Assembly (NCBI RefSeq): GCF_002982315.1 | Contig: NZ_MWZD01000017.1 | Span: 1 to 64,000, forward strand | Length of the DNA: 64,000 bases | Direction of reading: 5' to 3' | Origin: Leucobacter massiliensis | GTDB lineage: Bacteria; Actinomycetota; Actinomycetes; Actinomycetales; Microbacteriaceae | Shown: positions 37,208 to 58,453 of the stretch, piece by piece | Layout: each line of letters starts with the position of its first letter | How positions within the stretch are numbered: position 1 is the stretch's first letter | Translations under genes and position numbers: made by a program | The notes under the pieces: model-generated | Seen by the model: only the letters and a program-made list of their open reading frames with translations | Told to the model about the DNA's origin: nothing | Databases searched by the model: none

Positions 37208-39761
<2,554 letters not shown>

Positions 39762-39917: not shown

Positions 39918-41417
39918 TCAGGCGTCGATGACGAGGTCCGTGACGGCGGTCGAGCAGCAGGGCAGGAACTTGCCCGCTTCGATCTCACGCGCGCGGATCC
40001 CGCCCTGATGCTGCATCTCGACCTCGCCCTCGAGCTTGACGCTCTTGCACGAGCCGCACATCCCCTCCTCGCAGTTCGCGGGGATCCGGATGCCCGCACG
40101 CTGCGCGGGGCGCAGGATCGTCTCACCCGGCTCGATGCGCACCTTCAGCCGGCTCTGCATGAAGCACATCGTGAGGCTGCCGGAGCCGACCGTCTCGAAG
40201 TCCGCGGCATCGGCCGCCGCAGCGACGTCGTCCCGGTCCCGGCCTCCCGGACCCTCCGTGGCGGCGCCGGAGGAACCCTCCGCGGTGCCGGACGGGGAAA
40301 CCCCGTCTGCCGATCCCGCTCGAGCCTCCGCACCCGGCTCCGCCGCACCCGGCTCCGCCGCTCCCGGCGACGCCTCCGGCGGGGCTGCGGATCCCTCCTC
40401 CGCGACCGGCTCGCCGAGCCCCTCGACCGCGTAGGCCGACTCGGGGCCGTAGAGCTCCTCGGCGGGCGGCTCGTCGGCCGCGAGCTCGACGGCGAGATCG
40501 CTCGCGAGCGCCACCTCCTCCGCATACTCGCGGATCGTCTGGCGGTCGCCCGTGAAGTACTCCATGAAGATCGAGGTGTCGTCGACGCCGATGCTCCGCA
40601 GCAGCTCCTCCGCCATCGTGAGGTACCCCTCGGGCCCGCAGGCGTACACCTGGCGGCCGTTCGCATCGGGCGCCACCTCGTTGAGCATCGACGCCGTCAG
40701 CCGGCCCGCCATCCACTCCCAGCTGCCCGGGGTGTCCCGGTTGCCCAGGGACCAGAACACCTTGATCCGGGAGTCGGTCGCCGCGAGGTATTCGAGCTCG
40801 TTCGAGAAGGCGAAGCCACCGGCCTTCGCCGCGTGGTAGAGCAGCACCACATCGGCCTGGCCCGGCAGGCTGTGGATGGTGCGGATCATCGACATCAGCG
40901 GCGTGATGCCCGCCCCGGCGCCCAGCAGCAGGTAGCGCGCGCGCCGGTCCGCGTCGGGCAGGTGGAAGGCACCCACCGGTCCGAGCATGTCGAGCACCGT
41001 GCCCGGGCGCACCTGCTCGTGCGCCCAGGAGGAGACGAGGCCGTTCGGATCCCGCTTGATCGAGATCGAGAAGGTCCACGGCTGCGTCGGCGCGCTCGAT
41101 ATCGAGTAGCTGCGGTCGACCGGGGCCTCGCCCTCGCCGTGCACCGGGAACTCGATGTTGAGGTACTGCCCGGCGCGGAAGGAGAGCGGGGCCCCGTCCA
41201 CCCGGCGGAACACGAAGGTCATCATGTCCCCGGGCTCCGTCACGGTCTCGACGCACTCGGCGAGGAACTCCTGCGGGCGGTAGGGATCGAGCGCCCGCGC
41301 GGCCGGGCTCGACGCCGGGGCGTCGGCCGCCGCCGCGAGCGCGCGGTTCCAGGGCATCTCGAGCCCGCTGATGCGCAGCGGCTCGGGGGCCGAGATGGGC
41401 GAGGTGCTCAGCGTCAT
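39918..41417 (-). CDS. gbcB: Glycine betaine monooxygenase reductase subunit
   Basis: Electron donor to the Rieske oxygenase. 499 residues: an FAD-binding ferredoxin-reductase domain (about 45-145, RSYSISSAPT), an NAD domain (about 150-290, LLGAGAGITPLMSMI), and a C-terminal plant-type [2Fe-2S] ferredoxin with CEEGMCGSC and a fourth Cys in KFLPCCS. A low-complexity Ala/Glu/Gly/Pro linker of about 110 residues between the reductase and ferredoxin parts makes it some 130 residues longer than typical GbcB. The ATG overlaps the gbcA stop by 4 bp. Confidence 0.9.
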   Translation of the reverse strand: MTLSTSPISAPEPLRISGLEMPWNRALAAAADAPASSPAARALDPYRPQEFLAECVETVTEPGDMMTFVFRRVDGAPLSFRAGQYLNIEFPVHGEGEAPVDRSYSISSAPTQPWTFSISIKRDPNGLVSSWAHEQVRPGTVLDMLGPVGAFHLPDADRRARYLLLGAGAGITPLMSMIRTIHSLPGQADVVLLYHAAKAGGFAFSNELEYLAATDSRIKVFWSLGNRDTPGSWEWMAGRLTASMLNEVAPDANGRQVYACGPEGYLTMAEELLRSIGVDDTSIFMEYFTGDRQTIREYAEEVALASDLAVELAADEPPAEELYGPESAYAVEGLGEPVAEEGSAAPPEASPGAAEPGAAEPGAEARAGSADGVSPSGTAEGSSGAATEGPGGRDRDDVAAAADAADFETVGSGSLTMCFMQSRLKVRIEPGETILRPAQRAGIRIPANCEEGMCGSCKSVKLEGEVEMQHQGGIRAREIEAGKFLPCCSTAVTDLVIDA

Positions 41418-42718
41418 GCGATGTGTTCCCGCATGCGCTGGGTGTACCAGTTGACGAAGGCCTCGACCTGGTACTCGCTGTCCATGTAGGGCCCCTGCTC
41501 GTAGGCGGGGCTGGCTGCGCCGAGCTGGCACATCTCGACGAAGGCCTTGTCTTGGAGGTTCGTCTGCTTCCACACGTGCGTGAGCTCGTCGAGGTCGTAG
41601 TCGACGCCCTCGACGGCGTCGTCGGCCACGAGCCAGGTGGTGCGCACGAGCGTCTGGTGCTCGTTGATGGGGATCGCCGCGAAGGTGACGATGTGATCGG
41701 AGAGGAAGTGGAACCACGAGTTGGGCTGCAGGTGCAGCGAGCAGCGGCCGAGGCGGAAGTCGCGCAGGCTGCCCAGCAGCTTCTTCGAGAGCCGGCGGCC
41801 GGTGGCCGAGAACGACTCGCCGGCGCCGTCGAGCGACTCGCGGGAGATGCGGAAGCCCGCGATGCGGGTGTCGAGCTGCTCGATCACCTCGTGGTGGAGC
41901 CCGTAGCGGTCGCAGCGCTCCTCGAGCTGGATCTTCGCCTCGACGTTGCGGGCCCAGACCTCCTCGAGGTGGGGCGGGATCAGGCCGTCGCTGAGCCCCC
42001 AGGTGGGGAACAGGGAGCAGGCGAGCTCGGGGTGGCCGTCGCAGTGGTAGCACTCGCGGTTGTTCTCCATCACCAGCTTCCAGTTGCCCTCTTCGATGAT
42101 GTTCTGCTGGTAGGCGACCTTCGTCTGGGAGATGTCGTGCGGCGCGAGGTAGGGCTCGATGAGCGGGATGACCTCGTCGAAGTCCTCGGGCGGCTCCTCC
42201 GCGAGGCAGGTGAAGACGAGGCCCGCGACGATCCGCACCTGCGCGCGCTTGAGGGCGAAGCACTCCTTGTCGAGCTTCTCACCGGGGGCCGTGGACGCGT
42301 GGATCAGCGTTCCGTCCTCCGCGTAGGTCCACGAGTGGTAGCCGCAGACCATGTTGCCGGTGGAGCCGCGGCTCTCGGTGAGCACCCGGGCGCCGCGGTG
42401 GCGGCAGATGTTGTGGAGCACGTTCACCCCGCCGTCGTCCGTGCGCAGCACGATGAGCGCATAGGGTCCGAAATCGAGCGTGACGTAGTCGCCCGGCTCG
42501 GGGATCTCGGCGATGCTCGCCGTGAAGATCCAGTGCTTGCCGAAGATGCCCTCCATATCGGCCTTGAAGATGCCCGGATCGGTGTAGAAGGGCCCCTCCA
42601 TCGAGTAGCCGGTGCGGCGGCGCTCCAGCAGCTCGGTGAGCTGCGCGAGCGTTTCGGCCGGCACGAAGCCCGTGTCCGGGCGCTGCTCGCTGCGGGGTCT
42701 GGTCAGGGTGTAGCTCAT
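41414..42718 (-). CDS. gbcA: Glycine betaine monooxygenase oxygenase subunit
   Basis: Rieske non-haem iron oxygenase that removes one methyl of glycine betaine as formaldehyde to give dimethylglycine. 434 residues. The Rieske cluster ligands are C105, H107 (CRHRGA), C125 and H128 (CGYHSW). Mononuclear iron histidines are H225 and H229 in NNRECYHCDGHPEL. It is first in the gbcA-gbcB operon. A good promoter precedes it (TTGCAC, 16 bp, TAGATT), intergenic with the divergent LysR gene. Confidence 0.93.
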   Translation of the reverse strand: MSYTLTRPRSEQRPDTGFVPAETLAQLTELLERRRTGYSMEGPFYTDPGIFKADMEGIFGKHWIFTASIAEIPEPGDYVTLDFGPYALIVLRTDDGGVNVLHNICRHRGARVLTESRGSTGNMVCGYHSWTYAEDGTLIHASTAPGEKLDKECFALKRAQVRIVAGLVFTCLAEEPPEDFDEVIPLIEPYLAPHDISQTKVAYQQNIIEEGNWKLVMENNRECYHCDGHPELACSLFPTWGLSDGLIPPHLEEVWARNVEAKIQLEERCDRYGLHHEVIEQLDTRIAGFRISRESLDGAGESFSATGRRLSKKLLGSLRDFRLGRCSLHLQPNSWFHFLSDHIVTFAAIPINEHQTLVRTTWLVADDAVEGVDYDLDELTHVWKQTNLQDKAFVEMCQLGAASPAYEQGPYMDSEYQVEAFVNWYTQRMREHIA

Positions 42719-42793
42719 GCGATCTCCATTGATTGAACCGTGGCCGAGCGACCCCGGGGAGCCGCAGCGGCCCTGACGACGCTGACGTCCCTC

Positions 42794-42852
42794 AATCTAG
42801 GCTCGTTCAAGAAAGGTGCAAAACAATGTTGATCATCGTGCAGAATATCTGC
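42794..42852. promoter_or_regulatory. gbcA promoter and LysR operator
   Basis: On the minus strand TTGCAC (42816-42821) and TAGATT (42794-42799) are spaced 16 bp and would drive gbcA. GCAGA-ATA-TCTGC (42840-42852), a palindrome with T-N-A character, touches the LysR start codon. This fits an activator site near -60 of gbcA combined with autorepression. Confidence 0.6.
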
Positions 42853-43796: not shown

Positions 43797-44612
43797 ATGC
43801 GCGAGGAGGTGGCCGCCCGGGGCGGCGGGGGTGGTCGCGGTGACGCCTCGCCGGTGCAATCGGTCGACCGGGCGCTGCGGATCCTGGAGCACGTCGCCGA
43901 CCGGGGCGCCGCCGGCATCGCGGAGATCGCCGCGGAACTCGGGGTGCATCGCTCCACGGCGTTCCGCCTGCTCGCCACGCTCGAGGCTCGTCGCTTCGTG
44001 GTGCGCGGCCCCGACGGCGCCTACCGGCTCGGGGGCGGCGCACTGCGCATCGCGGGCGCGGTGACGGCGCGCGTCGACTTCGCCCGGGAAGCGCAGCTCG
44101 TCTGCGACGAGGTGACCGCGGAGCTGGGGGAGACGTCGAACGTGGCGATCCTCGTGGACGGCGACGCCGTGAACATCGCCCAGGCGACGGGCAGCGGCAG
44201 CGTCGCGGTCCGCGATCAGTTCGTCGGTCAGCGCACGCCGGCGCACGCCACCTCATCGGGGAAGGTGCTGCTCGCCTCGGAGGGGCCCGCCGCCCTGGAG
44301 CGCGTGATCGCGGAGGGGCTCCGGCGCTACTCCGAGTCCACGATCGTCGAGCCGGAACGGCTCTCGGACGAGCTGCGGCTCGTGCGGGACCGCGGCTGGG
44401 CCGCGGCACTCGCGGAGTGGCAGGAGCACGCGCACGCCGTCGCGGTGCCCGTCCGCGACTCGGACGGCGCGGTGATCGCGGCGCTGAGTGTCACGGCGCC
44501 CGCCTTCCGCATGCCGGAGAGCGAGCTGCCGGCCCTCGCGGCCACCCTGCGCGCGCACGCGGACGAGCTGTCGCGGCGTCTCGGCCACCGGGTGCCGCCC
44601 GCGCGCGGATAG
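43797..44612 (+). CDS. IclR-family regulator
   Basis: 271 residues. A Gly-rich start (ARGGGGGRGD), winged helix (about 20-80, GVHRSTAFRLLATLEAR), and an IclR ligand domain (about 95-265). TAGACT lies 7 nt before the ATG (leaderless). It follows the LysR gene after 14 bp. A candidate for the tandem palindromes before dmg. The effector is unknown. Confidence 0.8.
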   Translation: MREEVAARGGGGGRGDASPVQSVDRALRILEHVADRGAAGIAEIAAELGVHRSTAFRLLATLEARRFVVRGPDGAYRLGGGALRIAGAVTARVDFAREAQLVCDEVTAELGETSNVAILVDGDAVNIAQATGSGSVAVRDQFVGQRTPAHATSSGKVLLASEGPAALERVIAEGLRRYSESTIVEPERLSDELRLVRDRGWAAALAEWQEHAHAVAVPVRDSDGAVIAALSVTAPAFRMPESELPALAATLRAHADELSRRLGHRVPPARG

Positions 44613-44926
44613 GCGGGCGGGGCAGCGCGGCGCGCGAAGGCGCACCCGCGGAGAAAGTGGCCTCAGTGTGAATTTGGGCGTAATGCTTGGCGACGGCACC
44701 CGAGCGCGATAGCCTGAAACAGATATATGAGTTACACGTCACGGTGTCCCCCCTCGGCCCCCCGCCCCCCGCTCCGGAGCCGGCTCTGGGCGCACCGCGC
44801 TCCGCGATCCGGGGGGACCGCGGCCCGAGCGGGATTTCGCAGTACCGGTCAGCGCCGACCGTGAGCGCCCGGTTCCCTGGGGGAACTGAGGTGCCGCGAG
44901 CTCGGCGCCCGTGAAAGGAGTGCCGC
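44613..44926 (+). promoter_or_regulatory. 314-bp promoter region and long leader of the betaine transporter
   Basis: No gene is seen. A TAGCCT -10 box (44710-44715) and the GATATAT operator (44720-44731) imply a leader of about 200 nt. The leader holds C-runs and GC-rich inverted pieces near 44760-44880, and AAAGGAG lies before the GTG. I do not recognise a known riboswitch. Such a leader on an osmolyte transporter could be regulatory. Confidence 0.5.
44720..44731. promoter_or_regulatory. GATATAT operator at the BCCT promoter
   Basis: CAGATATATGAG lies at the expected transcription start. It matches CTGATATATCAC at 49430 and CTGATATATTAG at 50592. AT-only hexamers are rare in this GC-rich sequence, so three copies at related promoters is meaningful. 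Confidence 0.6.
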
Positions 44927-46873
44927 GTGGCACGTTCACCCCGCCCCAAGCGCCCTCAGACCACTGAGGAGCACATCGCCTTCCTGCAGCAGAGCAAGCA
45001 GCCGACGAAGACCCGACGGCGCACGGGCGTCGACGCCATCGTCTTCGGCGCCGCAGGCGCGATCGCTCTCGCCTTCATCGTCTGGGGCATCATCTCCCCG
45101 TCGGGCCTGGGCAACGTCGCCTCGCAGCTGCTGGCGGGCACCATGAACAACTTCGGCTGGCTCTTCGTCGTCGCCGGGGCGCTGTTCGCGACCTTCGTGA
45201 TCGTCGTCGCCGTCAGCAAGTTCGGCCGGATCCCGCTCGGCAAGGACGACGAGCGACCGCAGTTCAAGACCGCCTCGTGGATCTCGATGATGTTCGCCAC
45301 CGGCATGGGCATCGGGCTCGTCTTCTACGGAGTGGGGGAGCCGCTGTTCTTCTACCTCGCGCCCCCGCCGGACACGGTGACCGCCGCGTCGAGCGAGGCG
45401 ATCAGCGTCGCGATGGGTCAGACCCTCTTCCACTGGACGCTCTTCCCGTGGGCCATGTACGCGATCGTCGGCCTCGGCATCGCCTACAGCACCTACCGCC
45501 TCGGGCGCTCCATGCTCTTCTCCTCGATGTTCACCTCGCTGTTCGGCGAGCGCGTCGTGAACGGGGCGGGCGGGCGCATCATCAACGTGCTCGCGATCCT
45601 CGCGACCCTCTTCGGCTCGGCCTGCTCGCTCGGACTCGGCGCACTGCAGATCGGCGGCGGCATCCAGTCGAGCGGTATCGTCGGCCAGGTCACGACCCCG
45701 CTGCTCGTCGGCGTCATCGCCGTGCTCACCGCCGCCTTCGTCGCCTCGGCCGTCTCCGGCATCGAGCGGGGCATCCAGTGGCTGTCCAACATCAACATGG
45801 TGCTCGCCGTGCTGCTCGCGGTCATCGTCTTCATCGGCGGCCCCACGCTCTTCATCCTCAACGTCGTGCCGACCTCGATCGGCTCCTTCGTCGAGATGCT
45901 GCCGCAGATGGCCTCGCGCACCACCGGCCTCGGCGATGACGTGTCGACGTGGCTGTCCAACTGGACCGTGTTCTACTGGGCGTGGTGGGTGTCGTGGTCG
46001 CCCTTCGTCGGCATCTTCATCGCACGCATCTCACGCGGCCGCACGATCCGCCAGTTCATCGTGGGCGTGCTCTTCGTCCCGTCCCTCGTGTCGCTGTTCT
46101 GGTTCGCGATCTTCGGCGGCGGCGCGATCGGCATCCAGCAGCGCGCCGAGCAGGGACGCGACAACGTCGAAGCGCTCGTGCAGATGGTCGACGGCGCGCC
46201 GCAGCTGAACTTCGACACCGCGCTCTTCGACCTGCTGAATGCGCTGCCGCTTCCCGCGTTCATCACGATGGCGCTCGTCGCCCTCGCAGTCGTGCTCATC
46301 GCGATCTTCTTCGTCACCGGGGCCGATTCGGCCTCGATCGTGATGGGGGCGCTCTCCGAGAACGGGGTGCTCGACCCGACGAAGCGCTCGGTGATCTTCT
46401 GGGGCGTCGCGACCGGCGCCGTGGCGGCCGTGATGCTGCTGGCCGGAGGCGATCACCCCTCGGAGGCGCTGAACGGCCTGAAGAACATCACGATCGTGTC
46501 TGCGCTGCCCTTCGTGATCGTGATGGTGCTGCTCTGCGCCGCCCTCTGGCGCGATCTCTCCCGCGACCCGCTCGTGATCCGCGGCGCACTCGCCTCCAAG
46601 CTGCTGGAGGAAGCCGTCGTGGCGGGGGTGGACCGGCACGCCGAAGGCCAGGCCTTCGGACTGGTCACCAGCGAGATCACGATCATCACGGAGGAGCAGA
46701 TCACCGCGGACGCCGAGGCCAAGCGAGCGGCGAGCGGCTCGCCGATCGTCGAGGGCGCCTCACCGGGCGCCGATCCCGACCCCGCTGCCGCGCAGCCGGA
46801 CCGGGCAGCGGCGGCGGGCCCGGATGCCGAGGCCGGTCCCGACACCACCGAGAAGCAGGTCACGGGAGGCTGA
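44927..46873 (+). CDS. BCCT-family betaine/choline/carnitine transporter
   Basis: 648 residues, 12 predicted helices with extended termini. The glycine-rich motif GMGIGLVFYGVGEPLFFY marks sodium-coupled BCCT members. The Trp-rich segment FYWAWWVSWSPFVGIFIARIS is the family signature in helix 8. The acidic C-terminal tail (about 580-648), rich in Ala, Pro and Asp, may be an osmosensor as in BetP. Substrate glycine betaine is inferred from the surrounding catabolic genes. Confidence 0.9.
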   Translation: MARSPRPKRPQTTEEHIAFLQQSKQPTKTRRRTGVDAIVFGAAGAIALAFIVWGIISPSGLGNVASQLLAGTMNNFGWLFVVAGALFATFVIVVAVSKFGRIPLGKDDERPQFKTASWISMMFATGMGIGLVFYGVGEPLFFYLAPPPDTVTAASSEAISVAMGQTLFHWTLFPWAMYAIVGLGIAYSTYRLGRSMLFSSMFTSLFGERVVNGAGGRIINVLAILATLFGSACSLGLGALQIGGGIQSSGIVGQVTTPLLVGVIAVLTAAFVASAVSGIERGIQWLSNINMVLAVLLAVIVFIGGPTLFILNVVPTSIGSFVEMLPQMASRTTGLGDDVSTWLSNWTVFYWAWWVSWSPFVGIFIARISRGRTIRQFIVGVLFVPSLVSLFWFAIFGGGAIGIQQRAEQGRDNVEALVQMVDGAPQLNFDTALFDLLNALPLPAFITMALVALAVVLIAIFFVTGADSASIVMGALSENGVLDPTKRSVIFWGVATGAVAAVMLLAGGDHPSEALNGLKNITIVSALPFVIVMVLLCAALWRDLSRDPLVIRGALASKLLEEAVVAGVDRHAEGQAFGLVTSEITIITEEQITADAEAKRAASGSPIVEGASPGADPDPAAAQPDRAAAAGPDAEAGPDTTEKQVTGG

Positions 46874-46897
46874 TCCCTCCCGCGCACAGGCCGCGAA

Positions 46898-46926
46898 GGG
46901 CCCCGGAGCCGAGCGCTCCGGGGCCC
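46898..46926. terminator. Convergent terminator between BCCT and MFS genes
   Basis: GGGCCCCGGAGC and its perfect complement around CGAGC, placed between two convergent stops. Confidence 0.85.
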
Positions 46927-46934
46927 GCGTGATG

Positions 46935-48260
46935 TCAGTGCCGGAGATCGACCGGCGCGGTGTCGAGGGCGACGAGCTTGGTCTCGGGCGCCCACGCGAT
47001 CGAGGCGAGGAGCCCGACGAGCGAGAAAGCCGCCATGAGGAGCAGCGTGGTGCTCACCCCGAGCGAGTCGAGCGCCAGCGGGAACAGGTACGTCGCCCCG
47101 GCCGCGCCGATGCGGCTGATCGCCGCGGCGAAGCCGACGCCCGTGCTCCGGTAGTGGGTCTCGAACATCTCGGGCGGGTAGACGTACTGGATCGTGTTCG
47201 AGGCCACGATCACGAACACGAAGGCGCCGAACACCACGAGCTTCAGCACCGGCGGCTGATCCGCCCACAGGCCCAGGTAGACGAGCATCGCCGCGAGCAC
47301 CGCGAAGGTCCAGATCACGAAACCCCGGCGCGACATGACCGCGAGCAGCCAGATCCCGAATGCGGCGCCGGCCAGCTGGAAGGCGTTGACGAGCAGATCG
47401 AAGCCGAAGGTGCCGCCGAAGCCGAGGCTGTCCAGCACGGGAGTGATGAAGGTGAAGATCGCGAACAGCGGTCCCACCTGGCAGAGCCAGAACAGTCCCG
47501 AATAGACGATCCGCCGCCAGTCGTTCTGCGTGAAGAACTCGCGCAGCGAGCTGCTGGTCTCCGTCTTCACGATGCTCGGCAGGCCGTACTCGGCGCCCCA
47601 GTGCTTCCTCACGACCTGCTCGGCCTCGGCGATGCGGCCACGGCTCTGCAGCCAGCGCGGCGACTCGGGGATCGTGACGCGCACGATGAGCACGAGCACC
47701 GCCGGGATCGCGCTCGTGGCGAGCAGCCAGCGCCACGCCGCCGGGTCCCAGAAGTGGGAGACGACGAACGCCGAGATGAAGCCGACGAACCAGAACGGCG
47801 CGATCATGCCGAGCAGCAGGGAGCGCTTCTTCACGGGGGTGAACTCGGCGAGGAGCGAGGTGCCGACGGCGTACTCGACGCCGATGAGCAGGCCGATGAG
47901 CAGCCGGTAGGCGACGAGGTCCCAGGTGCCGACGACGAAGAGCTGCAGGATCGAGACGATGACGAAGCCGACGAGATTCCAGAAGAACACGCGCTTGCGG
48001 CCGAAGCGGTCGGCGACCCGGCCGAAGAACAGGCCGCTGATGAAGATGCCGATGAGGGCGCTCGCCGCGATGAGCCCGCTGCCGAGCAGCGAGAGGCCGA
48101 GCTCCTCCGAGGCTGGGCCGACCGCCCCTCCGATGACGCCGAGGATGTAGCCGTCGACGAAGATGCCGCCGAGTGCGGCGATGGTGACGATGACGACCAT
48201 CCGGTTGACCGGGGCCTCGTCGTAGGGGCGGAGGGGGGTAGGGGCGGAGCGCAGGGACAT
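46935..48260 (-). CDS. MFS transporter (sugar/aromatic-acid porter type)
   Basis: 441 residues, 12 helices. Loop 2-3 motif GRVADRFGRKRVFFW, ESPRWLQSRGR before the central loop, and YPPEMFETHYRSTGVGFAAAISR in the second half place it in the SP/AAHS group. AAGGAGG precedes the ATG. It lies on the same strand and downstream of purU (176-bp gap), inside the betaine region. It may import a related methylated amine such as choline, carnitine or creatine. Substrate is not proven. Confidence 0.8.
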   Translation of the reverse strand: MSLRSAPTPLRPYDEAPVNRMVVIVTIAALGGIFVDGYILGVIGGAVGPASEELGLSLLGSGLIAASALIGIFISGLFFGRVADRFGRKRVFFWNLVGFVIVSILQLFVVGTWDLVAYRLLIGLLIGVEYAVGTSLLAEFTPVKKRSLLLGMIAPFWFVGFISAFVVSHFWDPAAWRWLLATSAIPAVLVLIVRVTIPESPRWLQSRGRIAEAEQVVRKHWGAEYGLPSIVKTETSSSLREFFTQNDWRRIVYSGLFWLCQVGPLFAIFTFITPVLDSLGFGGTFGFDLLVNAFQLAGAAFGIWLLAVMSRRGFVIWTFAVLAAMLVYLGLWADQPPVLKLVVFGAFVFVIVASNTIQYVYPPEMFETHYRSTGVGFAAAISRIGAAGATYLFPLALDSLGVSTTLLLMAAFSLVGLLASIAWAPETKLVALDTAPVDLRH

Positions 48261-48436
48261 CGGGGGGTGATCCTCCTTGATCGGCGATGCGGCCGGACGC
48301 GCGGCGGTGCGCGCCCGGTGGGTCTCGCGATCGGGCCGCGAGGTCTCGCACGGCGCATGCGAGGAGAGTGCTGAGGCGAGGCGACGTGGGCAGTGCCGCC
48401 CCGCCCCAGGGTCTATCGGTGCACGGGCGGGTCGCC

Positions 48437-49306
48437 TCAGCGGAGCACGACGGTGCGGTTGCCGTTCAGGAACACGCGCGACTCGCAGTGCCACTTGACG
48501 GCGTCGGCGAGGGCCTTGCTCTCCGTGTCCCGGCCCGCGGCGACGAGGTCCTCGGGCTCGAAGGAGTGATCGACCGGCTGGACCTGCTGCGCGATGATCG
48601 GGCCCTCATCGAGCTCGTGGTTGACGTAGTGCGCGGTCGCGCCGACGGTCTTCACGCCGCGCTCCCACGCCTGGTGGTAGGGCTTCGCCCCCTTGAAGGA
48701 GGGCAGGAAGGAGTGGTGGATGTTGATCGCGCGTCCGCTGAGCTCGCGCGAGAGATGATCGGAGAGGATCTGCATGTAGCGCGCGAGCACGACGAGGTCC
48801 ACCTCGAAGCGGTCCACGATCTCGAGCAGCTTCTGCTCCGCCTCGGGCTTCGTCTCGGGCGTGACGGGAATGTGGAAGAAGGGGATGCCGTGCCATTCGA
48901 CGAGCTGGCGGTGATCGGGGTGATTCGAGACGACGGCGACGATGTCTGCGGGGATCTCGCCGGCGCGGGTGCGGAACAGGAGGTCGTTGAGGCAGTGCCC
49001 GAACTTGGAGACCATCACGAGGGTCTTCACCTTCTCGGTCTCGGGCCGCACCGACCACTCGGCTTCGAAGCTCTCCGCGAGCTCTGCGAAGTCGGCCGAG
49101 ACGCTCGCCGCGTCTGCCGGCTCGCCGTCCGCGAAGGCGAATTTGGCCCGGAAGAAGAAGCGCCCGGTGACGAGGTCGTCGAACTGGCGCAGGTCGATGA
49201 TGTCGCAGCCGTGCTTCACCAGGACTCCGGTGAGCGCGTGGACGATGCCGATCTGCTGCGGGCACGTGAAGGTGAGGATGAACGTCCGCTGGGGGAGAGG
49301 AGACAT
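48437..49306 (-). CDS. purU: Formyltetrahydrofolate deformylase
   Basis: Hydrolyses 10-formyl-THF to formate and free THF. 289 residues: an N-terminal ACT domain (about 5-85) and a formyltransferase domain with INIHHSFLPSFKGA and the catalytic Asp in ELDEGPII. The true start is ATG 49306. In betaine users this enzyme regenerates THF after DMG oxidase and sarcosine oxidase load it with one-carbon units. A TATTAT -10 (49419-49424) with the operator directly upstream supports co-regulation with glyA-sox. Confidence 0.93.
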   Translation of the reverse strand: MSPLPQRTFILTFTCPQQIGIVHALTGVLVKHGCDIIDLRQFDDLVTGRFFFRAKFAFADGEPADAASVSADFAELAESFEAEWSVRPETEKVKTLVMVSKFGHCLNDLLFRTRAGEIPADIVAVVSNHPDHRQLVEWHGIPFFHIPVTPETKPEAEQKLLEIVDRFEVDLVVLARYMQILSDHLSRELSGRAINIHHSFLPSFKGAKPYHQAWERGVKTVGATAHYVNHELDEGPIIAQQVQPVDHSFEPEDLVAAGRDTESKALADAVKWHCESRVFLNGNRTVVLR

Positions 49307-49429
49307 GAAACCGCCTTTGCGTCGGTGCTGGTGAGCGGGGTGGTCCGGGTGGGCCGGATCCGCGGCCGGTCCGCCCCGAGTGTCTCGGGGTGGCTTCCCG
49401 CCGTGGACGCCGGCACCTATAATAGGCAA

Positions 49430-49441
49430 CTGATATATCAC
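49430..49441. promoter_or_regulatory. GATATAT operator at the purU promoter
   Basis: CTGATATATCAC contains the perfect palindrome TGATATATCA. It lies 5 bp upstream of the purU -10 box, between -10 and -35, where a bound repressor would block RNA polymerase. Confidence 0.7.
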
Positions 49442-49499
49442 TGCGATGCTAACCGGCTCGCGGCGCGAAGCGCAAGTACGCGGCTCTGCCCGCATCCCC

Positions 49500-49640
49500 C
49501 AATCCCCGTCTCCTATACACCTCTGACCCTCCAGATCTATTGCATGCACTCACATTTTTTTTTTTTTTCCAAGAAAAGGCCGCCATACGAACCCACCCTC
49601 GTTCTGGTGGGCTCGGAGATGTGTAAAAGAGCCCCCCCCT
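49500..49640. other. Embedded, degraded Nextera/P7 adapter sequence
   Basis: 49506-49527 resembles the Tn5 mosaic end plus adapter (CTGTCTCTTATACACATCT). A T-run at 49555-49568 is followed by 49569-49590, resembling P7 (CAAGCAGAAGACGGCATAC). Then come 8-10 index-like bases, and 49600-49633 resembles the i7 Nextera arm (GTGGGCTCGGAGATGTGT exactly). The order P7, index, transposon arm is that of a library adapter. This is an assembly artefact. Confidence 0.9.
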
Positions 49641-49802
49641 ACCCCCCGCCCCCCCGCCCGCACACGCGACAGCGAGCGGCGGTGCCGTGCGCGAACGAAA
49701 CCCCAAGGCATGGCGCACACCACCGCCACTCGCACACCACCACCACTCACCGCAGCCGAGAACCAACCGGACAGGAAGAAACAGGAAGAAACAGGGGCAG
49801 GG
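49641..49802. other. Low-quality-looking gap between adapter remnant and gntR
   Basis: C-runs, a CACACC-rich stretch and a tandem AGGAAGAAAC unit (around 49773-49792) differ from the base composition on both sides. No gene or site is seen. It may be error-rich read ends joined by the assembler. Confidence 0.5.
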
Positions 49803-50447
49803 TCAGAGAACGGTACGGACCGTGGCCTCGAAGTTGCGCACGTGATCCCCGGCGAGCTGCGCGGCGCGTTCGCTGTCGCCGTCGAGGATCGCGCTCAGGA
49901 GATCGATGTGCTCGGTGATGTGGCCGCTGATGTCCGGGATCCGATCGCGCACGAGGCACCAGATGCGCGTCGCGAGGTCGTCGAGCCGCTCCAGGGTCTC
50001 GGCGAGGTGGTGGTTGTCGATCGCGTGATAGATGAGCCGGTGCACGGTGAGGTCGTACTCGAGCAGGCCCCGCTTGTTCTCGGCGGGGTCGATCCCCTCC
50101 AGTTCGGAGATGACGGCCTCGAACTCGGCCTGCTGCTCTTCCCGCAGCGAGTTCGCCGCGTGTCGCGCCGCGAGCGGTTCGAGCACCTGGCGTACCTCGG
50201 AGATCGCGGCGAGGTCGGTGATGTCGACGTTCGTGGCGAAGGTGCCGCGCCGGGAGTAGGAGACGACGAGGTGATCGTTCTCGAGTCGCTTCAGCGCCTC
50301 GCGGATGGGCGTGCGCCCGAGGTCGAGCTCGAGCGAGAGGGCCAGTTCGTTGATGGCCGCGCCCGGCGGGATCTCCAGCATGATCAGGCGGCTGCGCAGC
50401 TCGCGATAGGCGCGGTCGGCCTTCGTCTCCTCAAGCGACCATTCCAC
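49803..50447 (-). CDS. GntR/FCD-family regulator of glycine-sarcosine genes
   Basis: 214 residues from a GTG with AGGAAG upstream; longer readings run into the promoter. A GntR winged helix (about 8-70, LGRTPIREALKRLENDHLV) and an all-helical FCD effector domain (about 80-210) with metal-type histidines (LTVHRLIYHAIDN and ITEHIDLL). It is divergent from glyA-soxBDAG. On the minus strand TAGAAT (50575-50580) is its -10 box, and the GATATAT operator lies between -35 and -10, implying autoregulation. Its 3' end abuts the suspect assembly junction. Confidence 0.83.
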   Translation of the reverse strand: MEWSLEETKADRAYRELRSRLIMLEIPPGAAINELALSLELDLGRTPIREALKRLENDHLVVSYSRRGTFATNVDITDLAAISEVRQVLEPLAARHAANSLREEQQAEFEAVISELEGIDPAENKRGLLEYDLTVHRLIYHAIDNHHLAETLERLDDLATRIWCLVRDRIPDISGHITEHIDLLSAILDGDSERAAQLAGDHVRNFEATVRTVL

Positions 50448-50591
50448 GGAGCTTCCTCTCGATAGCCGGCCCGCCGTCGGCGACCGGTGCCGCACGGCCC
50501 GCCGCGTCACTGCTCCCGGGGAGCAGCGGCTCGCCGGGCCGGGACGGACCTTGACGGGCTCATGTCCTGGCAATATTCTACTAGGGACCAC

Positions 50592-50603
50592 CTGATATAT
50601 TAG
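50592..50603. promoter_or_regulatory. GATATAT operator in the gntR/glyA divergent promoter
   Basis: CTGATATATTAG covers the probable -10 box of glyA (TATATT, 50596-50601) and the spacer of the gntR promoter, so one bound dimer could shut both. Confidence 0.7.
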
Positions 50604-50632
50604 TTGGTGATCAATCGTACGAAGGAGTTCCG

Positions 50633-51970
50633 ATGACGCAGCCCGCTGCTTTCCAGCCCCGCACCCCGCACGAGCTGAACGCCCCGATCGCAGAGCTCGA
50701 CCCCGAGGTGGCGGAGCGCATCGACGCTGAGCTCGATCGCCAGCGCCGCGGGCTCGAGATGATCGCCTCCGAGAACCACACCGCGCAGGCGGTCATGCAG
50801 GCGCAGGGATCCGTCCTCACCAACAAGTACGCCGAGGGCTATCCGGGACGCCGGTACTACGGCGGCTGCGAGGAGGTCGACGTCATCGAGACCCTCGCCA
50901 TCGACCGCCTCAAGCAGCTCTTCGGCGCCGAGTTCGCGAATGTGCAGCCGCACTCCGGCGCCCAGGCCAATGCCTCGGCCATGCACGCGCTCATCAAGCC
51001 GGGCGACACGATCCTCGGTCTCAACCTCGCTCACGGCGGCCACCTCACCCACGGCATGCGCCTCAACTTCTCGGGGCGGCTCTACAACATCGTGCCCTAC
51101 GGCGTCGATCCCGAGACCCATCGCGTCGACATGGCCGAGGTCGAACGGCTCGCCCGCGAGCACCGCCCGCAGCTCATCATCGCGGGCTGGTCCGCCTACC
51201 CGCGCCAGCTCGACTTCGCCGAGTTCCGCCGCATCGCGGACGAGGTCGGGGCCTACCTCATGGTCGACATGGCCCACTTCGCGGGGCTCGTCGCCGCCGG
51301 GCTGCACCCGAGCCCCGTGCCGCACGCGCACGTCACGACCTCCACCACGCACAAGACCTTGGGCGGGCCGCGCGGCGGGATCATCCTCTCGAACGACGCG
51401 GAGATCGCGAAGAAGATCAACTCGGCGGTGTTCCCCGGTCAGCAGGGCGGACCGCTCGAGCACGTCATCGCGGGGAAGGCGGTCGCCTTCAAGATCGCGG
51501 CGAGCGACGCCTTCGCGGAGCGCCAGCAGCGCACCCTCGCGGGGTCGCGGATCCTCGCCGAGCGGCTCACCCGCCCGGACGTCGCCGAGCGCGGCATCAG
51601 CGTGCTCACCGGCGGCACCGATGTGCATCTCGTGCTCGTCGATCTGCGCGACTCCGTGCTCGACGGGCAGGCGGCGGAGGATCTGCTCGCGGAGGTGGAG
51701 ATCACGGTCAACCGCAACGCGGTGCCCTTCGATCCGCGCCCGCCGATGGTCACCAGCGGCCTGCGCATCGGCACCCCAGCGCTCGCGACCCGAGGCTTCG
51801 GCGAGGAGGCCTTCGCCGAGGTCGCCGACATCATCGCCGAGACGCTGATCGCCGGCACCGCCGAGGGCGGCGCCGAGCCCGCGACCGTGTCCGCCCTGCG
51901 CGAACGCGTCACCGCACTCGCCGATGCCCACCCGCTCTACCCCGAACTCGCACCGATCGGAGCACGCTGA
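50633..51970 (+). CDS. glyA: Serine hydroxymethyltransferase
   Basis: Joins glycine with 5,10-methylene-THF to give serine. 445 residues. The PLP lysine is K241 in [12 protein letters not shown], and QPHSGAQAN and the N-terminal [11 protein letters not shown] are typical. GAAGGAG before ATG. First gene of glyA-soxBDAG-sdaA, so it is a catabolic copy; a housekeeping glyA probably exists elsewhere. It consumes both products of sarcosine oxidase. Confidence 0.95.
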
Positions 51971-53187
51971 TGGCCGAGCTGCTGCCGGAGCACCCGGCAT
52001 TCCTGTGGCGCAACCCCGAGCCGAAGACCGGGTACGACGCCGTCATCGTCGGCGGCGGCGGCCACGGCCTCGCCACCGCCTACTACCTCGCGAAGAACCA
52101 CGGCATCACGAACATCGCCGTGCTCGAACGCGGCTGGCTCGCCGGCGGCAACATGGCGCGCAACACGACGATCATCCGCTCCAACTACCTCTGGGACGAG
52201 TCGGCCGCGATCTACGAGCACTCCCTCAAGCTGTGGGAGCAGCTCCCCGAGGAGCTCGAGTACGACTTCCTCTTCTCGCAGCGCGGCGTGATGAACCTCG
52301 CGCACACCCTGCAGGACGTGCGCGAGTCGAAGCGCCGCGTCAACGCGAACGTGCTCAACGGCGTCGACGCGGAGTGGCTCACCCCCGCCGAGGTCAAGGA
52401 GCTGTGCCCGATCATCAACATCGGCGAGGAGCTGCGCTACCCCGTGATGGGGGCGACCTACCAGCCACGCGCCGGGATCGCGAAGCACGACCATGTGGCG
52501 TGGGCCTTCGCACGCAAGTGCGACGAGATGGGGGTCGACATCATCCAGAACTGCGAGGTGACCGGCTTCGTCAAGGAGGGCGACCGCGTCGTCGCCGTCG
52601 AGACGAGCCGCGGGCGCATCGAGACGAGGCGGGTCGGCCTGGCCGCGGCCGGCAACTCCTCCGTGCTCGCCGATCTCGCGGGCTTCAAGCTGCCGATCCA
52701 GTCGCACCCGCTGCAGGCGCTCGTCTCCGAGCTGTTCGAGCCGGTGCACCCGACCGTCGTCATGTCCAATCACGTGCACGTCTACGTCTCGCAGGCGCAC
52801 AAGGGCGAGCTGGTGATGGGCGCCGGCGTCGACGCCTACAACGGCTACGGCCAGCGCGGCGCCTTCCACGTCGTCGAGGAGCAGCTGGCGGCGGCCGTCG
52901 AGCTGTTCCCGATCTTCGCCAGAGCGCACCTGCTGCGCACCTGGGGCGGCATCGTCGACGTCACGCTCGACGCCTCGCCGATCGTCTCGAAGACGCCCAT
53001 CGAGGGCATGTTCGTGAACTGCGGCTGGGGCACCGGCGGCTTCAAGGGCACTCCCGGCGCCGGATTCTCCTTCGCGCACACGATCGCAACGGGCGAGCCG
53101 CACGCCCTCAACGCCCCCTTCTCGCTCGACCGCTTCGAGACCGGTCGCCTCATCGACGAGCACGGCGCTGCCGCCGTCGCCCACTAG
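51970..53187 (+). CDS. soxB: Sarcosine oxidase beta subunit
   Basis: 405 residues. An FAD Rossmann motif IVGGGGHG (26-33) lies near the start. The flavin-binding segment AKHDHVAW contains H173 and H175, where heterotetrameric sarcosine oxidases attach FMN covalently. Forms the catalytic core with SoxA, oxidising sarcosine to glycine with O2. The ATG overlaps the glyA stop by one base. Confidence 0.95.
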
Positions 53188-53207: not shown

Positions 53208-53504
53208 ATGCTGCTCATCGAGTGCCCCAACTGCGGCCCGCGCGACGAGGTCGAGTTTCACTACGGCGGACAGGCGCACGTGCCCTACCCCGAGGATCCC
53301 TTCGCGCTGAGCGACCGGGAGTGGGCGGAGTACCTCTTCTATCGCGAGAACACCCGCGGCGTCTTCGCCGAGCGGTGGAGCCACAGCGCGGGGTGCCGCA
53401 AGTGGTTCAACGCCCTCCGCGACACCGTCACCTACGAGTTCAAGGCCGTCTACCGCATGGGCGAGCCCCGGCCCGCACTGCCCGAGGAAGAGGACGCACG
53501 ATGA
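53208..53504 (+). CDS. soxD: Sarcosine oxidase delta subunit
   Basis: 98 residues. Zinc ligands are visible: C6 and C9 (CPNCG), H59 and C63 (HSAGC). Structural subunit of the SoxABDG complex. AAAGGA before the ATG. It overlaps soxA by 4 bp. Confidence 0.94.
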
Positions 53505-56467
53505 GCGCAGCACGCCTGGACGCCGGCCGCGCGGCCGGACGCGGGATCGACCGATCCCGCGAGATCTCCTTCTCCGTCGACGGCACCGCCTACCGCGGTT
53601 TCGCGGGCGACACGATCGCGAGCGCGCTGCTCGCGGCCGGCCGCATCGACTGCGGTCCCTCGATGTATCTCGGCCGCCCGCGCGGCGTCTTCTCCGCCGG
53701 GGTGGAGGAGCCCAACGCGCTCGTCGCGGTCAAGGCGCGTGCCGCAGGCGAGGTCGACGAGTCGATGCTGCCCGCCACCCGGGTGCAGATCACGGAGGGC
53801 CTGGAGGCGCGGTACCTGAGCGGCCTCGGCACGCTCGACCCGCGGAAGGACGAGTCGGTCTACGACCACAAGTTCGTGCACACCGACGTGCTCGTCGTCG
53901 GCGCGGGCCCGGCGGGCCTCGCCGCGGCGCGCGAGGCGGGCAAGAGCGGCGCACGCACCATCCTCATCGACGAGCAGAGCGCGCCGGGCGGCGCGCTGCT
54001 GAGCGCCCGCGAGGAGCTCATCGACGGCATCGAGGGTGCGCAGTGGGCCGCCTCGGTGGTCGAGCGGCTGAGCGGGCTGGGCGAGTTCAGCTACCTGCCC
54101 CGCACCACCGCCTTCGGCAGCTACGACGCGAACTACGTCGTCGCCGTGGAGGATCGCAGCGACGCCCTGCTGGCCGCCCCGCACCCCGGCTCACCCCGGC
54201 AGCGCATCTGGCACATCCGGGCGCAGCAGGTGGTGCTCGCCACGGGGGCCCACGAGCGCCCCATCGTCTTCGCGAACAACGACCGTCCCGGCGTCATGCT
54301 CGCCGGGGCGGTGCGCAGCTACCTGAACCGCTACGCGGTGGCGGCGGGTTCCCGGATCGCGATCGCCACCACCAACGACTCGGCCTACGAGCTGCTCGGC
54401 GAGCTGCACGACGCGGGCGTCGACGTGGTCGCCGTGGTCGACTCGCGTGAGCAGGCCTCGGCGTCGGCAGCCGCGGCGCTCGGCCGCGCCGGCGTGCGCG
54501 GCATCTTCGGCTCCGCGGTCGTCGACACCGCGGGCGACGGCCCGGCCGGCCGCGTCAGCGCGGTGCGGGTCTCCCGCATCGACGACGCCGGCGCGCTGCT
54601 GGGCGAGGTCGAGACCATCGAGGCGGATCTGCTGGCCGTCTCGGGCGGGTTCTCGCCCGTGGTGCACCTGCACACGCAGCGGCAGGGCCGGGTCGCGTGG
54701 GACGATCGGATCGCGGGCTTCGTGCCCAGCTCGGCCGTCGCGAATCAGGCGCTCGCCGGTGCGGTGAACGGGCGGTACGCGCTGGACGACGCGCTCTTCG
54801 AGGGCGCCACGGCCGGGCAGCGGGCGGCGCAGCGCGCGGGCTTCGCCGCGCCGCTGATGGTGCCGCAGGCGGGTGCGGCGGGCGGCGATGCCGCGGGCGC
54901 CTCCGAGGCCGCGGGGCGCCACGCCGCTGCGGCCGCCCCGGAGGACGGCGGCATCCGGCCGCTGTGGCTCGTCCCGGGAACGGGCGAGCCGGGGGAGTGG
55001 CGTGAGCACTTCGTCGACCTGCAGCGCGACCAGACCGTCGCCGACGTGTACCGGGCGACCGGCGCGGGCATGCGCTCCATCGAGCACGTCAAGCGCTACA
55101 CCTCCATCTCCACGGCGAACGACCAGGGCAAGACGAGCGGCGTCAACGCGATCGGCGTCATCGCCGCGGCGCTCGGCCGCGACGGCCTCGCCGGCTTCGG
55201 CAGCACCTCGCATCGCGCTCCGTACACGCCCGTCGCCTTCGCTGCGGTGGCCGGACGGCGCCGCGGCGAGCTCTTCGATCCTGCCCGGCTCACCTCGATC
55301 CACCCCTGGCACGTGGCTCACGGCGCCGAGTTCGAGGACGTCGGCCAGTGGAAGCGGCCCTGGTACTACCCGCAGCCGGGTGAGGACCTGGACGCCGCGG
55401 TGCTGCGCGAGTGCGCCGCGGTGCGCGAGTCGGTGGGGTTCCAGGACGCCTCCACGCTCGGGAAGATCGAGATCCGCGGCGCCGACGCCGGCGAGTTCCT
55501 GAACCGGATCTACACGAACGGCTTCGCGAAGCTCAAGCAGGGCAGCGCGCGCTACGGCGTGATGTGCACTCCCGACGGCATGATCTTCGACGACGGGGTG
55601 ACGCTGCGCCTCGCGGAGGACCGCTTCTTCATGACGACCACCACGGGCGGCGCGGCGCGCGTGCTCGAGTGGCTGGAGGAGTGGCACCAGACCGAGTGGC
55701 CCGAGCTCGACGTCGTGTTCACCTCGGTGACCGAGCAGTGGAGCACGGTCGCGGTCGTCGGACCCCGATCCCGCGAGGTCGTCGCGAAGCTCGCACCGGA
55801 TCTCGAGCTCTCCAACGAGGCCTTCCCCTTCATGACGTTCCAGGAGACGCGCCTGGCGAGCGGGATCCCCGCCCGCATCTGCCGCATCTCCTTCTCGGGC
55901 GAGCTCGCCTTCGAGATCAATGTCGAGACCTGCTACGGCCTGACGGTGTGGGAGGCGGTGGCCGCTGCGGGCGAGGAGTTCGGGATCACGCCCTACGGCA
56001 CGGAGACGATGCACGTGCTGCGCGCCGAGAAGGGCTTCATCATCGTCGGGCAGGACACCGACGGCACGGTCACCCCGCAGGACGCCGGCATGGAGTGGGT
56101 GGTGTCGAAGCAGAAGGACTTCATCGGCAAGCGCTCCTTCGCCCGGGAGGACACGGCGCGCGAGGACCGCAAGCACCTCGTCGGGGTGCTCCCGGTCGAC
56201 GGCCGGACCCGTCTGGAGGAGGGCGCGCAGTTGGTGGCGGCGGACACGCCGATCACCCCGGAGCGGGGGCCGGTGCCCATGATCGGCCATGTCACCTCCT
56301 CCTACCAGTCGGCGGCGCTCGGCCGTCCCTTCGGTCTCGCGCTCGTGGAGAACGGCCGCAACCGGATGGGCGAGCTCGTGCGCGTGCCGGCGGGCGATGA
56401 CATCATCGAGGTGGAGATCACCTCTCCCGTGTTCTACGATCCCGAAGGGAAGCGACGCGATGGCTGA
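53501..56467 (+). CDS. soxA: Sarcosine oxidase alpha subunit
   Basis: 988 residues. An N-terminal ferredoxin-like SoxA module (about 20-100, with [17 protein letters not shown]), a NAD/FAD two-dinucleotide domain ([14 protein letters not shown], about 129-142; ATGAHERP, about 248), and a GcvT-like folate domain (about 590-980) that captures the methyl carbon as methylene-THF. An Ala/Gly-rich insertion of about 35 residues near 450-485 looks like a loop expansion. The canonical order B-D-A-G is kept with overlaps. Confidence 0.95.
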
Positions 56468-57083
56468 GCACACGATCGAGCTGAACCGCCTGCGGGTCTC
56501 GCCGGCGGCCCATCTCGCCGACGCCATGCGCGCCGGCGAGATCACCGGACCGCGCGCCGTCTCGCTGCGCGAGCTGCCCTTCGTGCCGCAGCTGGGTCTG
56601 CGCTGCGTCCCCGGTTCGGCCTCCGCGGCGGCGGTCGAGGAGGCGCTCGGTCTGCCGCTGCCCGCCCGGGTGGGGGAGGTGAGCGGCGACCCCGACGGCC
56701 TGCACGTGCTGTGGCTCGGCCCGGACGAGTTCCTCGCGGTCGACGTGTCGCGGCAGCAGGAGCCGGGGGAGGGCGCCCAAGTGGCCGCCGCGCTCGACGG
56801 CCTGCCCGGCCAGTGCGTGGACCTCTCGGCCAACCGCACCGTGCTGGAGCTGCGCGGGCCGAGCGCCCGCGAGGTGCTCGAGAAGGGCTGCCCCGCGGAT
56901 CTGCACCCGCGGGTGTTCCCGGCGGGCAGCGGGATCGTCACCCAGCTGGGGCTGGTGCCGGTGCTGCTGCACCGATCGGATGAGCGCACCTTCCGCGTCT
57001 TCCCGAGGGCGTCCTTCGCGGACTTCACGGTGCGGTGGCTGCTCGACGCCATGGTCGAGTTCGCGGAGCCAGGGGGGTCCTGA
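56460..57083 (+). CDS. soxG: Sarcosine oxidase gamma subunit
   Basis: 207 residues. GcvT-like fold with the conserved [30 protein letters not shown] and [19 protein letters not shown] blocks. ATG lies within the last codons of soxA (8-bp overlap). The stop overlaps sdaA by one base. Confidence 0.93.
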
Positions 57084-58453
57084 TGCCGCTGAGCGTGCTC
57101 GACCTCTTCTCGATCGGCATCGGCCCGTCCTCATCGCACACGGTGGGGCCGATGCGCGCCGCGGCCCGCTTCCTCGGTGAGCTCAGGGGCGCAGGGCTGC
57201 TGGAGCGCGTGAACCGGGTGCAGTGCGGGCTGTTCGGCTCGCTGGGGGCCACGGGCCGCGGTCACGGCTCCGACACGGCCGTGATCGTGGGGCTCTCGGG
57301 GCACGAGCCGGAGACGGTCGACCCGGGCATCGTGCCGGAGCTGGTCGGTCGCGCGCGCGAGACGAGGACGCTGCTGCTCGGCGGCGAGCGGCCGATCCCC
57401 TTCGACGAGGCGGCGGACGTGGTGCTGCACCTGCGGCGCTCGCTGCCGGGGCACCCGAACGGCATGCGCCTCACCGCGTTCGACGCGGCGGGAGACGTCG
57501 TGCTCGAGCGGGAGTACTACTCGATCGGGGGCGGCTTCGTCGTCTCCGACGAGGAGCTGGCTTCGCCGCCGGAGGAGGAGCACCCGGATCCGCTGCCCTT
57601 CGCGAGCGGCGGCGAACTGCTGGAGCGCTGCCGCGAGATCGGCGGCGGGATCGCCGACGTGATGCTCGTCAATGAGACCGCGCACCGCGACGAGGCGGAG
57701 CTGCGCGAGCGCCTGCTGCGGATCTGGGCGGTGATGGAGGAGTGCGTGGAGAACGGCTGCACGCGACAGGAGGAACTGCTGCCCGGCAAGCTGGGCGTGC
57801 GGCGCCGCGCCCCCGGCCTGCTGGCCCGTCTCCGCGCGGAGGACCGCGAGGACGGCTCGTTGCACGCCCTGGAGTGGGTCAATCTGTACGCGCTCGCCGT
57901 GAACGAGGAGAACGCCTCGGGAGGCCGGATCGTCACGGCGCCGACCAACGGGGCCGCCGGGATCATTCCCGCGGTGCTCCACTACTACACGCGCTTCATC
58001 CGCGACGCGAACGAGGACCGCGTGATCGAGTTCATGCTGACCGCGGGAGCGATCGGCACGCTGATGAAGCGGAACGCCTCGATCTCGGGTGCGGAGCTGG
58101 GCTGCCAGGCGGAGGTCGGATCGGCCTGCTCGATGGCGGCGGGTGCGCTCTGCGCGGTGCTCGGCGGCACGCCCGAGCAGGTGGAGAACGCGGCGGAGAT
58201 CGGCCTGGAGCACAATCTGGGGCTCACCTGCGATCCGGTCGGCGGTCTCGTGCAGGTGCCCTGCATCGAGCGGAACGCGATCGCCTCGGTGAAGGCGATC
58301 AACGCCGCGCGGCTCGCGCTCGCGGGCGACGGCTCCCACCGGGTGAGCCTCGACCAGGCGATCACCACGATGCGCCAGACGGGCGAGGACATGAAGTCGA
58401 AGTACAAGGAGACCTCTCGCGGCGGACTCGCCGTGAACGTGGTCGAGTGCTGA
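57083..58453 (+). CDS. sdaA: L-serine dehydratase, iron-sulfur type
   Basis: Converts L-serine to pyruvate and ammonia, ending the betaine route. 456 residues, fused single-chain form: the beta domain with [14 protein letters not shown] (14-27) and the alpha domain with [17 protein letters not shown]. The cluster cysteines are in [12 protein letters not shown] and [18 protein letters not shown]. It is the last gene of the glyA-sox operon and is translationally coupled to soxG. Confidence 0.95.

Follow-up and report, generated by a model that had tools for sequence, protein, structure and literature searches.

The window analysed here (64,000 nucleotides, positions 1 to 64,000 of contig NZ_MWZD01000017.1 of Leucobacter massiliensis) carries a gene for a BCCT-family transporter, purU with an MFS transporter gene behind it, a gene for a GntR-type regulator and an operon of glyA, soxB, soxA, soxG and sdaA (Table 1). 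Three copies of a 16-base-pair (bp) palindrome, AACTGATATATCAGTT, were found at this locus. The palindrome is very probably the operator of the FCD-type GntR protein encoded at 49803-50447, by which BCCT, purU and glyA-soxBAG-sdaA would be repressed until a metabolite of the pathway releases it.

Table 1. Coordinates of the genes, sites and other features discussed (positions in the window)
Feature	Position	Strand	Remark
FAD+GCV_T protein, dimethylglycine/sarcosine dehydrogenase type	37211..39703	-	
Rieske oxygenase, GbcA-like	41417..42718	-	best NCBIfam match GbcA (glycine betaine monooxygenase), 381.3 bits, below cut-off of 670
Operator copy 1, AACAGATATATGAGTT	44718..44733	+	putative BCCT transcription start; 2 mismatches to 16-mer
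BCCT-family transporter (betaine/carnitine/choline type)	44927..46873	+	PF02028, 541.7 bits
MFS transporter (Sugar_tr)	46935..48260	-	PF00083, 178.8 bits
purU, formyltetrahydrofolate deformylase	48437..49306	-	TIGR00655 above cut-off
Operator copy 2, AACTGATATATCACTG (CAGTGATATATCAGTT in purU sense)	49428..49443	-	just upstream of TATTAT -10
Degraded Illumina Nextera adapter sequence and poly-T run	49508..49631	.	probably non-genomic
gntR, GntR-FCD regulator, VanR-like architecture	49803..50447	-	proposed repressor; PF00392 and PF07729
Sigma70-like promoter of glyA-sox operon, TTGACG-17-TATTCT	50551..50579	+	sole consensus promoter in 44600-50650
Operator copy 3, ACCTGATATATTAGTT	50590..50605	+	gntR/glyA intergenic region
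glyA, serine hydroxymethyltransferase	50633..51970	+	PF00464, PRK00011
soxB, sarcosine oxidase beta subunit	51970..53187	+	TIGR01373 above cut-off
soxA, sarcosine oxidase alpha subunit	53222..56467	+	TIGR01372 above cut-off; true start later than start of open reading frame (ORF)
soxG, sarcosine oxidase gamma subunit	56289..57083	+	TIGR01375 above cut-off; match from ORF residue 104, true start later
sdaA, L-serine ammonia-lyase	57035..58453	+	TIGR00720 above cut-off

A first-pass annotation of this DNA had proposed that one palindrome is shared by the BCCT, purU and gntR/glyA promoters, and its three sequences were located at CAGATATATGAG (from 44720), CTGATATATCAC (from 49430) and CTGATATATTAG (from 50592). 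Together with their flanks they proved to be copies of AACTGATATATCAGTT with two mismatches each. When the window was scanned with this 16-mer, 14/16 positions agreed at the three sites and at most 10/16 anywhere else, which bears out the sharing. The palindrome TGATATATCA, which had been put forward as the operator, stood as the core, the true operator being longer, at 16 bp. In the whole genome (3,136,406 bases in 24 contigs) this core at up to two mismatches matched 85 places versus 40 for a reversed control; as a genome scan pattern it was dropped as too loose, and the longer 16-bp form was therefore needed. AACTGATATATCAGTT at up to two mismatches occurred at exactly three places in the genome, all at this locus; at three mismatches two additional places appeared. 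The string TGATATATYA had only two occurrences in the genome, at 49431 and 50593.

Since the 16-mer was derived from the window itself and from the first relatives, counts across the order provide a more independent test than the count in its own genome, some order loci having already been seen when the 16-mer was fixed. The order sample comprised 396 genomes of 110 genera, and kinship was left uncorrected in all counts. With cut-offs of E ≤ 1e-30 for GntR and E ≤ 1e-130 for soxB, a GntR orthologue was detected in 85/396 genomes and soxB in 82/396, with both in 80. soxB was found without GntR in two genomes (G645 and G714) and GntR without soxB in five (G506, G578, G604, G626 and G723). Wide regions were retrieved for gntR loci except in G445, G497 and G506 and at the second gntR copies of G350, G368, G425 and G658.

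Every soxB place found, except that of this genome, was then scored, giving 81 loci. The operon head (soxB, glyA or sdaA) was assigned by script from starts estimated by tblastn, and 350 bp upstream were searched at a threshold of 12/16. An operator of at least 12/16 was present at 75/81 operon heads; five of these were perfect, and in each 0/100 shuffles equalled the score. The six script failures were inspected, and four of them hold a site by eye. It lies 30 bp before the sdaA match in G164 (12/16), 416 bp upstream of soxB in G472 (13/16) and 244 bp before a partial glyA match in G419 (13/16). In G566, TTGATATATCAA stands just before glyA with the 10-bp core TGATATATCA intact, and reaches only 10/16 over its full length, which is below the threshold and lower than the best chance match (11/16) in G714, a genome that lacks GntR. 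The other two are G645 and G714, the sole soxB genomes without a GntR orthologue, where the best matches in 15 kb were 10/16 and 11/16, respectively.

In the 1,280,672 bases of the 81 loci, 88 sites of at least 12/16 were counted, that is the 75 operon heads and 13 others, and all 13 lay at most 420 bp from gntR or a pathway gene. Counting the genus of this genome, the operator-bearing soxB genomes of the order sample fall into 19 genera. The 16-mer at up to one mismatch occurred in 19/396 genomes, 18 of them with GntR (Fisher p = 3e-12), and the reversed control in 3. Comparative genomics shows the operator, where it lies, that it is linked to this GntR and which genes belong to the regulon, and no other protein comes close to the FCD-GntR encoded at 49803 as a candidate reader of the sites. 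The earlier proposal that this protein represses the regulon is partly supported: the co-occurrence of GntR, soxB and operator points to the protein, and the position of the sites in the promoters fits repression.

Regarding this position, only one consensus promoter was found in 44600-50650, against 0.2 expected in shuffles. The glyA operator lies downstream of its -10 hexamer and does not overlap it. The BCCT operator begins 2 bp past a weak -10 (TTGGCG-17-TAGCCT), and the purU operator is in the spacer next to a -10 that was read by eye from the sequence, the script search having found no purU promoter. The first-pass placement over start, spacer and -10 was consequently retained for BCCT and purU and revised for glyA. 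Among 78 operators (the 75 operon heads and the three in this genome), a sigma70-like promoter was located just upstream of 58, and shuffled upstream sequences gave 3/78. In these 58 the operator starts 2-13 bp past the -10 hexamer, and in 52/58 the distance is 6-10 bp. A protein on the operator would thus cover the transcription start, and the position is most simply read as repression by occlusion.

Within the genus, GntR was detected in 5/54 genomes, and all five have a site with at most two mismatches at this locus; two of them (G014 and G291) have an additional such site elsewhere in the genome. Among the other 49 genomes of the genus, five contain a site at up to two mismatches, with different centres (GATCTATC, GAGATATC, GATCGATC). 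The comparison of orthologous promoters that had been suggested turned out in favour of the operator, at the 75/81 operon heads given above and in G310, another species of the genus. There the purU promoter keeps TGATATATCA and TTGCCTAnTAT amid otherwise divergent DNA, and TGATATATTAGTTG is kept at glyA. Operator copy 3 is conserved in G310 and, with one core change, in G327 of the same genus. At the BCCT orthologue of G310 (L081:4722), CAGATATATGA is identical upstream, in promoter DNA that otherwise gave no site-to-site alignment.

The operator stays with the operon rather than with the gntR gene. It is still found at the operon head where gntR lies at the operon 3' end (L140, L141, L050) and where a separate contig carries gntR (G445, G497, G511). 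In related genomes the operator or its core was also found before other genes, namely purU (L146, L147), an FAD+GCV_T demethylase (L134), a second glyA (L086) and BCCT genes (twice in G310, and in G014 and G291).

Further sites were noted. In six genomes (G385, G519, G711, G465, G563, G693) a second site lies past the gntR 3' end, and in two loci (L143:8351-9484, and L208 after 10589) it stands at the start of a predicted membrane-protein gene of about 380-400 residues. No Pfam match was obtained for this protein beside gntR (L143 scanned) and no NCBIfam match (L143, L208); it is a candidate transporter of the pathway. Sites with no evident link precede an aminotransferase (L082), a P450 or hydrolase (L083) and an Ldh_2-family gene (L248, G699:C5:23484). 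The last consists of two adjoining TGATATATCA in a genome that has no GntR orthologue. All three could have arisen by chance or belong to a paralogue, and none was used as evidence. In L051, L052 and L053 (and L245-L247) a GntR of 38-40% relatedness is encoded beside an FAD+GCV_T demethylase with a TGATATATCTTGA-like site between them, and L051 also holds GcvT-like, MTHFR and formate-tetrahydrofolate (formate-THF) ligase genes. Possibly, these loci form a sister regulon with an operator of its own.

Several observations weigh against the proposed GntR regulon. Because the genomes are related, they do not count as independent samples, and the p-values overstate the significance. The BCCT copy, the most divergent of the three in the core, differs from the operon-head consensus at two positions of the core (A where 74/74 heads have T, and G in place of the usual C or T). 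In the 500 bp upstream of gntR itself, at least 12/16 was reached in only 35/42 loci examined. In G613, one of the 18 genomes with GntR and a site at up to one mismatch, the match is off the sox contig. The second gntR locus of G644 (L130) showed no ATATAT-type site, its best being 12/16 near lysR. Arthrobacter globiformis (L078, a 46% relative) has the same core before an MFS transporter, and its seven scanned neighbours include no folate or sarcosine gene. Finally, the betaine and dimethylglycine demethylation genes of the window have no operator, since all matches in the window outside the three sites reach at most 10/16; the regulon therefore falls short of the whole pathway.

Taken together, the genes of the window could make up most of a route from betaine through dimethylglycine, sarcosine, glycine and serine to pyruvate, and only the uptake, purU and glyA-sox-sdaA parts of it carry the operator. 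The best NCBIfam model for the BCCT gene is that of the glycine betaine BCCT, below cut-off. The MFS gene follows purU on its strand and is possibly co-transcribed with it. Operator sharing by the GbcA-like and dimethylglycine-dehydrogenase-like genes was tried and rejected, the best match in 42501-42960 being 9/16. Two other regulators are encoded nearby, an IclR at 43797 and a LysR at 42733 (start about 42826, + strand), the latter being a candidate controller of the FAD+GCV_T and GbcA-like genes.

A stretch between the purU promoter and the gntR 3' end resembles sequencing adapters. Positions 49508-49535 matched the read-1 adapter at 23/28 (score 18.0; background at most 16.5 in 170 window chunks), and positions 49603-49631 matched the read-2 adapter at 27/29 (score 25.0; background at most 13.5). 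Pieces of the P7 and P5 primers stayed within the window background (11.0 vs 13.5 and 10.0 vs 14.0). The letters used for comparison are those that we take to be the Nextera adapter. The stretch 49508-49631 is probably an assembly artefact, and the length of the purU-gntR spacer (about 500 bp here) is unreliable and not to be trusted. The conclusion on the operator stands, because the purU copy lies outside the adapter-like stretch and purU and gntR are adjacent in G310 too.

The GntR protein scored 47.0 bits with PF00392 (cut-off 27) and 78.5 bits with PF07729 (cut-off 24.3), which places it in the GntR superfamily and the FCD subfamily; with PhnR (TIGR03338) it reached 81.1 bits against an equivalog cut-off of 271.5. 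The AlphaFold2 model had a mean predicted local distance difference test (pLDDT) value of 93.4. After the winged helix-turn-helix the model has effector-domain helices at 78-99, 103-117, 125-141, 146-169, 174-188 and 192-213. This predicted number agrees with the VanR group, which has six effector-domain helices, the FadR group having an additional one (PMC7797058). D132, H136, H180, H202 and R86 were invariant in 37 aligned GntR sequences; by their spacing they resemble the metal site and Arg86 of Atu1419 (PMC7797058) and, by analogy, may have the same role. In metal-binding FCD members this site consists of an Asp or Asn and three His. One source labels a Brevibacterium orthologue (P0107) "putative biotin regulatory protein BioR"; sites at up to two mismatches were found in this genome only at BCCT, purU and glyA, the orthologue context is soxB, and no search for biotin genes was made.

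The first-pass annotation had also held that FCD-type GntR proteins bind AT-centred palindromes, which found no confirmation. In the available part of a survey (PMC4494728), the operator consensus of the FadR subfamily is a GT-Nx-AC palindrome, from which some members differ; the core TGATATATCA has no GT...AC pair and does not follow it. Eight operators of one family of genomes have the centre TGATACATCA, and 6/8 of the corresponding GntR proteins have Lys instead of Arg45. The residue at this place reads the key guanine in Atu1419 (PMC7797058). The pairing fits GntR as the reader of the operator, though it may be a single evolutionary event.

The fold neighbours of the model in the PDB were PmiR of Pseudomonas aeruginosa (7xp0, 7xp1), 7u5q, McbR and Atu1419, with PmiR and 7u5q on top. 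These Foldseek and VIA-align matches extend over the entire FCD fold and single out no ligand, the neighbours binding different ones. PmiR reportedly controls another pathway. Atu1419 of Agrobacterium fabrum, a GntR-FCD protein of the VanR group (PDB 6z74, 6za0, 6za3, 6za7), is about 26% identical to this GntR; however, it has another operator sequence and belongs to a hydroxycinnamate, not a sarcosine, pathway. McbR/YncC of Escherichia coli (PDB 4p9f) is about 21% identical and has different targets, and dihydrofolate is its reported ligand in the available part of PMC13343897.

From these data we infer that GntR binds directly and represses, and that a metal and an inducer take part. A GntR dimer would sit on the palindrome, which covers or adjoins the transcription start or falls in the -10/-35 spacer, and would block RNA polymerase. 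This would keep off uptake by BCCT, purU together with the MFS gene that follows it, and glyA-soxBAG-sdaA. A pathway metabolite bound at the Asp/His3 metal site in the FCD domain would release the repressor, so that uptake of betaine/sarcosine, N-demethylation, disposal of one-carbon units and conversion of serine to pyruvate would be switched on as a set. The inducer is most likely sarcosine or another small metabolite of the pathway; glycine, which the first-pass annotation also named, is possible.

As a serious alternative of clearly lower probability, the same repressor and operator might respond to a folate, 5,10-methylene-tetrahydrofolate (5,10-methylene-THF), instead of sarcosine or glycine. 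A response to folates has been reported for two structural neighbours, Atu1419 (PMC7797058) and, as far as the available part of PMC13343897 goes, McbR. An FAD+GCV_T gene is present in 7/8 of the retrieved gntR loci that have no soxB, the 38-39% GntR relative in L051 lies beside MTHFR and formate-THF ligase genes, and 5,10-methylene-THF is the one-carbon product of THF-dependent demethylation. However, neither of the top fold matches, PmiR and 7u5q, is one of these two neighbours, and the metal site is common to FCD proteins with other ligands. purU was found in only 49/81 sox loci (loci cut at 7-20 kb), and the A. globiformis locus has no folate gene among its seven scanned neighbours. A still slightly more tentative extension is that GntR acts as a sensor of one-carbon load, released by 5,10-methylene-THF coming from sarcosine oxidase and related GCV_T-type demethylases.

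It is improbable that the palindrome is read by the neighbouring IclR or LysR, with GntR as a passenger. Homologues of both recur in several loci, but many operator-bearing loci have neither within the 20 kb retrieved, the operator is found in soxB genomes with GntR and is absent from the two without it, and the TGATACATCA operators pair with a Lys45 GntR in 6/8 cases, possibly through one event. Chance, that is look-alike AT-rich sequences of -10 type in a GC-rich genome, is hardly credible: TGATATATCA is loosely matched at the 85 places mentioned and the sites adjoin -10 boxes, but the 16-mer is specific in the genome, kept in a diverged species and recurrent at operon heads in 19 genera.

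GntR repression through AACTGATATATCAGTT thus remains the preferred explanation. Among the matches listed in a search of open-licence PMC, limited to titles and the starts of abstracts, none dealt with a GntR regulator of a sarcosine oxidase operon, and none of those listed for the string TGATATATCA concerned GntR. The nearest likeness is transcriptional control of sarcosine oxidase genes in Bacillus thuringiensis, which, in the available part of PMC4941409, is Sigma54-dependent with SoxR and does not involve a GntR-FCD operator. The regulon is new as far as searched and of a known kind; in domains and fold the regulator is unremarkable for an FCD-GntR.

With this analysis, the heterotetrameric sarcosine oxidase operon of 19 genera in a single order would gain a regulator, a precisely defined operator and a regulon. 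The question whether such FCD repressors sense folates becomes directly testable. If the one-carbon sensor were true, a widespread actinobacterial repressor would tie the uptake and breakdown of betaine and sarcosine to how far the folate pool is charged, and this GntR, Atu1419 and McbR would make up a class of VanR regulators that sense folates.

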